Assembly (NCBI GenBank): GCA_023269085.1
Contig: JAHFML010000001.1
Span: 75,966 to 108,577 of the forward strand
Direction: 5' to 3'
DNA: 32,612 bases
From: a bacterium
GTDB lineage: Bacteria; Patescibacteriota; Minisyncoccia; Phycocordibacterales; Phycocordibacteraceae
Shown here: in pieces, positions 26,450 through 30,000 of the stretch
How positions within the stretch are numbered: the first letter of the stretch is position 1
Layout: each line of letters opens with the position of its first letter
Notes under the pieces: model-generated
Seen by the model: the letters and a program-made list of their open reading frames with translations, nothing else
The model's database searches: none
What the model was told of the DNA's origin: nothing
Translations under genes and position numbers: made by a program

Positions 26450-26477
26450 AGCATACCTTATTTGAGTCTGCCGTCAA
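26450..26477 (-). promoter_or_regulatory. Sigma-70 promoter of the orphan operon
   Basis: On the minus strand TTGACG (26477-26472), 16 nt, TATGCT (26455-26450). The -35 box lies within the last codons of rnhB. The leader to the 91-aa ATG would be about 55 nt. Confidence 0.65.
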
Positions 26478-27066
26478 GATGCACGAAGGTGCGACGGTGG
26501 ATAGCCGAGAGGCCGTGCTCACGAAGCATCTCATAGTGTCGCTTGGTGCCGTAGCCCTTATGAATCTCGAAGCCGTAAGCCGGATACTCGGCGGCGAGCG
26601 CGACCATCAGATGGTCGCGCGACACCTTCGCCGCGATAGACGCGAGCGAGATGATTGGCACGAGCGCGTCGCCGTGGATGATGGTCTCTTGGGAGAATTC
26701 GGGCGGCGCGCGAAGCGCGCCGTCGAGCAGAATGTGAACTTCATCTTTCATGTGGGGTTTCGTAAACCCCACAAGGTTGCGCACACCACGGGCGAGCGCG
26801 TCCGACACTGCGGCGCTGATTCCCTTCTCGTCGATGAGAACAGCATCGGAAAATTCGACCGCGAAGCGCGCGTCGCCTCTTGCGACGCGCGCAGTGAGCA
26901 TTTCGAAAATCTCTTCGCGCTTCTTCTCCGAGAGTTTCTTCGAATCATTTACTCCGGGGAATTCGCGCGCGACGTCAAACCCTTCGGGCATCATGACCAC
27001 CCCGACCGCCACCGGCCCGGCGAGTGGCCCACGCCCCGCTTCATCTACCCCGAGCAAAAATCGCAT
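26458..27066 (-). CDS. rnhB: Ribonuclease HII
   Basis: RNase HII removes RNA primers and single ribonucleotides from DNA. It has 202 residues from ATG 27066, where MRFLLGVDEAGRGPLAGP is the family N-terminus; the ORF-track start at 27228 overlaps dnaE. Catalytic blocks: DEAGRGPLAGP, VNDSKKLSEKKRE, HILLDG and HGDALVPIISLASIAAKVSRD, with C-terminal YGFEIHKGYGTKRHYEML. Residues about 98-106 (VGFTKPHM) are encoded by a palindromic element that also occurs in dnaG. It is inserted between the helix ending ARGVRNL and the HILLDG strand. TATACT ends 6 nt before the ATG and is shared with divergent dnaE. Confidence 0.96.
   Translation of the reverse strand: MRFLLGVDEAGRGPLAGPVAVGVVMMPEGFDVAREFPGVNDSKKLSEKKREEIFEMLTARVARGDARFAVEFSDAVLIDEKGISAAVSDALARGVRNLVGFTKPHMKDEVHILLDGALRAPPEFSQETIIHGDALVPIISLASIAAKVSRDHLMVALAAEYPAYGFEIHKGYGTKRHYEMLREHGLSAIHRRTFVHLDGRLK
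26751..26773. repeat. Palindromic element encoding VGFTKPHM, copy in rnhB
   Basis: A perfect 10-3-10 palindrome with arm TGTGGGGTTT. Together with the next base on the left it is identical to the dnaG copy over 24 bases and is read in the same frame. Confidence 0.88.
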
Positions 27067-27072
27067 GATGAA

Positions 27073-27080
27073 AGTATACT
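27073..27080. promoter_or_regulatory. Shared palindromic -10 box of rnhB and dnaE
   Basis: AGTATACT is its own reverse complement and reads TATACT on both strands. It lies 7 nt before the dnaE ATG (+) and 6 nt before the rnhB ATG (-). The entire intergenic region is 21 bp, so both mRNAs would be leaderless. Confidence 0.6.
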
Positions 27081-27087
27081 GTGCCTT

Positions 27088-30000
27088 ATGGCATCGCGCT
27101 TCGTCCATCTCCACACGCATAGTCATTATTCCTTCTTGCAGGCCTTGCCCAAGATCGACGAGCTCGTCGATAAGGCAAAGAAGGAGGGTATGGACGCCCT
27201 CGCCCTCACCGATGGCGGCAACATGCACGGCGCTATCGAGTTCTATAAAACGGCAACCAAAAAGGGGGTGAAGCCTATCCTCGGCGTCGACACGTATCTG
27301 GCGCCACGCTCACGATTCGACAAGGACCCAACCCTCGACGCGAAGCGTTCGCGCATTGTCCTGCTCGCAGAGAATACCGAAGGCTACCAGAATCTCCTCG
27401 CGCTCGTGACCCGGTCGTGGACCGAAGGCTTCTATGAGCGGCCGCGCATCGACAAAGAGCTCCTGCGCGTGCATGCGAGCGGTCTCATCGCACTCCTCCC
27501 CTCCTTCGCGAGCGACACGAGTCAGCTCTTGCGTGCGGGCAACAGCGAGGGCGCGCATGCCGCACTCGCCGAGTTCACGAGCATCTTCGGCCATAACAAT
27601 CTCTTTTTAGAAATCACGCACCACCCGCATGTCGAGGGGCACGAGAAGGTGATGAAAAAGATTGTCGCGCTCGCGCACGAGACCGGTGTCCCGCTCGTCG
27701 CTCAACACGACGTCTACTACCTCGAGCCGGACGACCGCGAAGCGACCGAGATCCTGCGCCGCATCGGCCAAGGCGGCCACGGCAAAAATGAAAAAGAAGA
27801 TTTTTCCTTCTTGAGCGAGGCGAAGATGCTCGAGCTCTTCGCCGACCTGCCCGAAGCGGTCGACGCGTCACGCGCCATCGCCGACCGCTGCAACATATCC
27901 TTCGAGCTCGGCACCTGGACCTTCCCTGCCATGCCCGTGTCGCCCGGATTCGCATCACACGACGACGAGCTCCGCGTCAAGGCCTATGCGGGTATCGAGA
28001 TCCGCGGCCTCGAGGAGACCAAGGAGGTCATTGACCGCATCGAGTACGAGCTCAACATCATCATCACCAAAGGGTTCGGTGTGTACTACCTCATCGTGGG
28101 CGATCTACTCGCCTTCGCCAAGAGCGCGGGCATCGTCACCACGACGCGCGGCTCGGCCGCCGGCAGCCTCGTCGCCTATCTCGTCGGCATCACGAACGTC
28201 AACCCGCTCTTCTATAAGCTCCCCTTCGAACGCTTCTTGAACCCCGAGCGGCCGAAAGCGCCGGACATCGACATGGACATGGCCGACGACCGCCGCGACG
28301 ACATGATCGCCTATGCGAAGCAGAAGTACGGCGATGACCACGTTGCGCAGATCGGCACCTTCGGCACCATGATGGCGCGGGCGGCCGTGCGCGACGTCGC
28401 ACGCGCGCTCGGCCATGCCTACTCGACCGGCGACCGCATCGCGAAGCTCATCCCGATGGGCTCGCAAGGTTTCCCGATGACCATCGACCGTGCGCTCGAG
28501 CTCGAGCCGGATCTGAAAGCGCTCTACGACGAAGACGACGATGCGCACGAAGTCATCGATCTCGCGAAGCGCATCGAGGGCTGTGTGCGACATGTCGGCG
28601 TGCATGCGGCTGGTGTCGTCATCTCGCCAACGCCCATGATCAAGTGGACGCCCGTCCAACCCGACCCGAAGGGTACCGGCAAGCTCATTACGCAATACGA
28701 CATGTACGCGGTCGGCGAGGACGGCGTTGGGCTGACCAAGTTCGACTTCCTCGGTATCAAGAACCTCGCCATCCTCGCCGATGCGGTCGCCCGCATCAAG
28801 GAGACCCGCGAGCTCACGATCGATATCGAGAACATTCCCATCGACGACGAGAAGACCTTCACGATGCTCGCGAAGGGCGACACCGAGGGCGTCTTCCAGC
28901 TGAATGGTTCGGGCATGACGCGCTGGCTCAAAGAGCTGAAGCCTTCGACTATTCACGACATCAACGCGATGGTCGCGCTCTATCGCCCGGGGCCGATGGA
29001 GACCATCCCGCAATATGTCGAACGCAAACATAATCCGCGCATGATCAACTTCCTCGATCCGCGGATGAAAGAGTATCTCGACTTCTCCTACGGCCTCCTC
29101 GTCTATCAAGATGACGTGCTCCTCACCGCTATCAAGCTCGGCGGCTATTCGTGGCTCGAGGCCGACAAGCTGCGCAAGGCGATGGGCAAGAAGATCCCCG
29201 CCGTCATGCAAGCCGAGAAGGAGAAGTTGCTCAAGGGATTCGTCGAGTACGGCAAACTTCCGAAAGAGAAGGCTGAGAAGCTCTGGCACCTTATCGAACC
29301 CTTCGCCGCCTACGGATTCAACAAGGCGCACGCCGCGAGTTATGGCAAGGTTGCGTATCAGACCGCCTATTTGAAAGCGAATTATCCGGTCGAATATATG
29401 GCTGCCGTGCTCACTGCCGATTCGGGCGACACCGAAGCCATCGCCGTCTTCGTCGCCGAAGCGGCCCGCATGAACATCCGTGTTCTCCCGCCCGACGTGA
29501 ACGAGAGCGGGAGCGTCTTCACGGTGGTGCACGCCGGCGAAGACGCATTCGCTGAGGGCATCTCCAACTTGAGTAAGGTCGAACCTTACTCAAATGAGGA
29601 AGGTTCGACCTTACTCAAGTTGGACCGACAAACCTATAACGCCATCCGTTTCGGCTTGTCGTCAATCAAGAACTTCGGCGAGGGCATCTCTGAAGCAATC
29701 ATCGCCGAACGCAAAGCGCGCAGCCCCTTCACTTCCCTCTCCGACTTCCTCTCCCGTGTCGGGTCGAAAAATTTGAACCGCAAATCGCTCGAGGCGCTCA
29801 TCAAGTGCGGCGCGCTCAACTCGCTCTGCATCGACGCGGGCGGCCGCGGCACGCTCCTCGACAATATCGAGACCCTCCTCTCTTATCATCGCGAGTCGAC
29901 CGCGGTCGCGCCACAAGACTCGCTCTTCGGCACGCTCATGGCGCCGCCCGCGCTCACGCTCCCCATCGGCAAGCCCGTCTCACTCATAGAGAAGCTCGCA

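Follow-up and report, generated by a model that had tools for sequence, protein, structure and literature searches.

Two-Way and Leaderless Promoters Described in Bacteria

In the class of bidirectional promoters described by Warman et al. in 2021, as presented in PMC12825309, the symmetry of the -10 element allows RNA polymerase to bind either way. The divergent starts of such promoters lie 7–25 bp apart (PMC10268837), 18 bp being the commonest distance and 10 and 23 bp also common (PMC12825309). Another line of work concerns leaderless (TA-led) bacterial genes, in which a TANNNT hexamer precedes the start codon by about 12 bp (PMC3160421; for mycobacteria, PMC4633059). Since the genomes surveyed in PMC3160421 were downloaded in 2010, that survey is unlikely to cover Patescibacteria, and no leaderless-gene or start-site study for this phylum was found in the literature searched.

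The locus discussed here, the divergent pair rnhB–dnaE, belongs to a member of the genus Candidatus Kaiserbacteria, a streamlined lineage from which 93 genomes were compared. It lies in a window (the whole stretch of DNA analysed) of 32,612 nucleotides; the assembly, referred to as G000, comprises 710,721 bp in 14 contigs and is most likely metagenome-assembled. The relatives retrieved with DnaE bear the names Candidatus Kaiserbacteria and other Paceibacteria/Parcubacteria, which places the genome in the Patescibacteria (CPR). The initial annotation proposed that one palindromic -10 box serves two leaderless genes in opposite directions, and stated that divergent transcription from symmetric -10 elements was known in other bacteria. 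The latter is borne out by the class of Warman et al., as far as it is presented in PMC12825309 and PMC10268837; for the former, the comparative evidence gives good support, the start sites being inferred.

The rnhB–dnaE Junction

The features of the junction are collected in Table 1. The coordinates confirm what the initial annotation had read there: a 21-bp gap and an element, AGTATACT, that reads TATACT on both strands, at 6 nt from the start of rnhB and 7 nt from that of dnaE. Both start codons are backed by homologues beginning at the same residue, and DnaE carries the PHP and Pol III alpha domains recognized by Pfam. The opposite-strand hexamers overlap reciprocally and begin at -12 for rnhB and -13 for dnaE, that is, at the position of TANNNT in leaderless genes. 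Neither the 6-nt spacer of rnhB nor the 7-nt spacer of dnaE contains a Shine–Dalgarno-like motif, no TTGACA-like -35 element was found on either strand, and the TGn of an extended -10 is absent, AAG and CAG standing before the two hexamers. The shared promoter would be weak by E. coli standards, because it has neither a -35 element nor TG on either side. dnaE is an essential gene; a promoter for it may be concealed inside rnhB.

Table 1. Features of the rnhB–dnaE locus and further shared-box sites of the same genome.
Feature	Position	Strand	Details
rnhB, ribonuclease HII, 202 aa (MRFLLGVDEAG...)	26458..27066	-	ATG at 27066; Pfam RNase_HII PF01351, E=2.9e-33
Divergent intergenic gap GATGAAAGTATACTGTGCCTT, 21 bp	27067..27087	.	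orthologous 20–24 bp gaps in 30 relatives
Perfect 8-bp palindrome AGTATACT, putative shared -10 region	27073..27080	.	core conserved in all compact gaps
Putative -10 hexamer TATACT for rnhB	27073..27078	-	6 nt 5' of ATG; from the sequence
Putative -10 hexamer TATACT for dnaE	27075..27080	+	7 nt 5' of ATG; from the sequence
dnaE, DNA polymerase III alpha subunit, 1090 aa	27088..30360	+	ATG at 27088; PF07733, PF17657, PF02811
rmuC/yqeY, same genome	C2:1785-1811 (site C2:1794)		AGTATACT, geometry 6-8-7
recG/lemA, same genome	C5:25917		AGTATACT, geometry 6-8-8; recG start GTG

Very probably, AGTATACT serves as one symmetric -10 element from which a polymerase of the sigma70 type, engaging it in either orientation, would produce leaderless mRNAs of both rnhB and dnaE. 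In either orientation the same few base pairs of the box would be melted, and the RNA would start at, or at most one base from, the A of each start codon, with predicted starts at 27066 (-) and 27088 (+), 22 bp apart. Both directions are expected to be active. Because of the geometry of the box, polymerase would face one way at a time, and such either/or occupancy is physically plausible.

The likeness to the known bidirectional promoters lies in one -10 region used on both strands with no need of a -35 element. The predicted distance of 22 bp between the starts falls within the range of 7–25 bp and near the 23-bp class, although not in the commonest class of 18 bp (PMC12825309). Unlike the known promoters, rnhB–dnaE would yield two leaderless mRNAs, the entire gap measures 20–24 bp, and the start codons stand at the expected +1. 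Furthermore, the described bidirectional promoters are defined by mapped starts, one of the two RNAs being often non-coding, whereas the starts of rnhB–dnaE are predicted from the leaderless geometry. With the TA-led leaderless genes it shares the position and sequence of the box, together with a genome-wide peak; those genes, however, normally have one box each, while here one box would serve two genes and the TG extension is lost.

Predicted Leaderless Genes in the Same Genome

The genome-wide peak was established in a survey of start codons in G000, with the genes called from codon usage only. A TAnnnT hexamer starts 11–16 nt upstream of 227 of the 523 start codons, as against 52, 44, and 34 in control windows of equal width placed further upstream, and the hexamers peak at -12 to -15. 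When the boxes are aligned, the start codon follows the hexamer by 6–9 nt, a TG-like preference appears directly upstream of it (T 0.54 at -3, G 0.62 at -2), and the place of the -35 element, 21–24 nt before the hexamer, shows only a weak T-rich/G signal. Shine–Dalgarno-like motifs form a small peak only. By these signals the genome appears to be largely leaderless, matching the TANNNT criterion of about 12 bp (PMC3160421). The same spacing surrounds the palindrome: the genome holds 13 copies of AGTATACT, and 13 of their 26 edges have an ATG at 6–9 nt, with almost none at adjacent distances.

Conservation of the Box among Relatives

Junctions of rnhB and dnaE were taken from the genomes of the genus irrespective of motif, which gave 77 with the divergent pair. 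The gap is compact, 20–24 bp, in 31 junctions, and every one of these contains one shared box with a GTATA core: AGTATACT in 15, AGTATATACT in 11, AGTATAAT in four, and CGTATACT in one. The spacer on the rnhB side is 6 nt long in 29 of the 31, and that on the dnaE side is of 6–8 nt and of variable sequence. The initial annotation had pointed to the symmetry in relatives as the feature to be checked, a non-symmetric box at the same gene pair counting against its reading. The shared core stands throughout; the departures are mild, AGTATAAT being one base off symmetry and still TATAnT on each strand, and CGTATACT having lost the final T of the rnhB-strand hexamer, which becomes TATACG.

In many other relatives, 46 junctions in all, rnhB and dnaE lie further apart, mostly with one box per gene: an own TAnnnT box is located 6–10 nt from the start of dnaE in 43 of the 46 and of rnhB in 36. 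Because most of the longer gaps contain separate boxes, the palindrome is tied to compactness; it accompanies short gaps and is not a fixed sequence. The arrangement as a whole is, by this comparison, a recurring and selected one in Candidatus Kaiserbacteria.

In some relatives with gaps of 33–110 bp (G091, G110, G065, G022, G085, and G063) one box is an inverted copy of the other, AGTATACC...GGTATACT, and hairpin-like inverted repeats, with arms of about 20 bp in G091, lie between them in several of these gaps. It looks as if the box were split or merged by the insertion of a short inverted repeat or by slippage from one GTATAC copy to another. In five genomes (G002, G027, G012, G008, and G014) the matched rnhB stretch contains an internal stop codon or the rnhB matches are split, which may reflect assembly errors or decaying copies of rnhB.

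Other Gene Pairs with the Same Layout

Within the 93 genomes the layout CAT-N6-AGTATACT-N7-ATG occurs at 37 sites, with none in the read-backwards control, and CAT-N6-AGTATACT-N6-ATG at 34 sites, with one in the control; at the off-spacing N10/N11 the 71 sites are reduced to one, with one in the control. Beyond the genus this geometry is at background level (2 of 239 other genomes of the phylum, with two control matches), and AGTATATACT at N6/N6 spacing was found nowhere but between rnhB and dnaE. Fifty-nine junctions were read out, and nearly all of them flank substantial divergent ORFs, representing about 13 kinds of pair. Among these are rmuC/yqeY, a PolB-type exonuclease with a PLD-domain protein, rnhB/dnaE, thyA/tmk, an HhH-GPD glycosylase with a small membrane protein, recG with several different partners, alongside all of which it retains the shared box, purQ/dnaX, and serS/dprA, as well as some unrelated pairs. 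A gene of DNA replication, repair, recombination, or nucleotide metabolism is present in about 8 of the 13 kinds; the excess is an apparent one, seen in the list of pairs and in a small comparison with other close divergent pairs of G000, which are mostly not DNA-metabolism genes. The recJ/HIT-family pair of the same genome (G000:C2:283855-283883) has a 27-bp gap in which the boxes overlap but are asymmetric (ATTGTATACT); the layout recurs there in pseudo-symmetric form.

Loss of the TG Extension

When two TATACT hexamers have four bases in common, position -2 of each is necessarily A, and therefore a TG-extended -10 is impossible in the shared box. The separate boxes of the genus, in contrast, often resemble extended -10 promoters. 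For dnaE, G at -2 is present in 33 of 43 separate boxes versus 0 of 31 shared ones (Fisher's test, 2e-12, relatedness ignored), and for rnhB in 30 of 36 versus 1 of 31 (8e-12, likewise with relatedness ignored). The full TGn is found in 22 of 43 separate dnaE boxes and 23 of 36 separate rnhB boxes, and in none of the 31 shared boxes on either side. The dnaE hexamer is TATACT or TATAAT in all 31 shared boxes versus 19 of the 43 separate ones. On a tree built from 230 dnaE columns, in which 35 of the 84 inner branches are poorly supported, the passage between the shared and separate states needs 20 changes; of the independent contrasts for the TG trade-off, just three have well-supported branches, and although nearly all of them point the expected way, they are too few for significance. 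Shared boxes thus seem to have lost the TG-type extended -10 usual in separate boxes, an extension that the symmetry forbids. The shared element would have arisen as two ordinary leaderless -10 boxes merged into one, the cost being the TG-type extension and any good -35 element. Such an arrangement fits genome compaction.

Alternative Explanations

That the palindrome overlaps two start regions by coincidence in an AT-rich junction could be suspected from a single 8-bp motif in one genome, but with 0.05 copies expected in the window from dinucleotide shuffles against the one observed, 71 sites across the genus against one at the off-spacing control, and conservation in 30 relatives, coincidence is hardly credible and is refuted by the comparative data. 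Another reading is that the box drives a single gene, probably dnaE, and that its symmetry comes with the TATACT consensus as a by-product, rnhB being expressed from elsewhere or weakly. GTATAC is indeed self-complementary, and on that account a good GTATACT box comes near to symmetry by itself. However, the A needed for a complete rnhB-strand hexamer (AGTATA) is kept in 30 of the 31 compact gaps despite costing the favoured G at -2; moreover, rnhB genes standing apart usually have a box to themselves, again 6 nt away, and the genus-wide enrichment requires start codons on both sides. A box that drives one gene only is thus very unlikely.

The palindrome could also be an operator that overlaps the promoters by chance and binds a dimeric regulator, such as one repressing a DNA-metabolism regulon. 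The perfect symmetry of the box speaks for it, as do the genes of DNA replication, repair, or nucleotide metabolism present in about 8 of the 13 kinds of shared-box pair. Against it, the box holds a promoter's distance of 6–9 nt to the start codons and tolerates AGTATATACT and AGTATAAT; where the genes lie apart, the palindrome usually gives way to a GGGTATACT- or TTTGGTATTCT-like box for each gene; and one-sided AGTATACT sites in G000 are no marker of DNA-repair genes. As for a LexA/SOS operator in particular, the LexA DNA-binding domain (PF01726) has no match in this genome, and the two weak matches to PF00717 are probably signal-peptidase-like proteins. Because the symmetry vanishes in separated boxes and no LexA domain was found, the operator was rejected as very unlikely. 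The best reading of the rnhB–dnaE box is that of a compact variant of the known two-way promoter class, conserved within one genus of Patescibacteria; structurally, the observation has more strength and generality than the initial annotation could have known.

Coupling of the Partner Genes

The initial annotation also suggested that, through the shared box, the removal of primers is coupled to the replicative polymerase. This is not supported, because RNase HII acts chiefly in ribonucleotide excision and because the same promoter shape also serves unrelated gene pairs. A further reason comes from E. coli, in which basal transcription from the five bidirectional promoters tested was too low for the two directions to compete, interference being seen only on strong activation of one direction (PMC12825309). 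A wider proposal is more speculative and rather doubtful: that in Candidatus Kaiserbacteria minimal two-way leaderless promoters of fixed geometry (about 20–24 bp, with no -35 or TG), merging and splitting in evolution and preferring genes of DNA replication, DNA repair, and nucleotide metabolism, provide an either/or or noise-limiting link. If true, partner genes would be linked in this way in cells that have few regulators.

Significance for Candidatus Kaiserbacteria

If the two-way reading is correct, the box would be near the smallest possible divergent promoter, one 8-bp element from which two genes take their signals for starting both transcription and translation, and this minimal promoter would be conserved across a genus whose members are ultra-small. 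A single orthologous locus offers a natural series of shared box, two adjacent boxes, and distant boxes, which is suited to asking what promoter sharing costs and whether it couples expression. The leaderless promoter consensus could improve the annotation of start codons in Kaiserbacteria, and a combined promoter and start-codon rule is on offer for annotating Patescibacteria.
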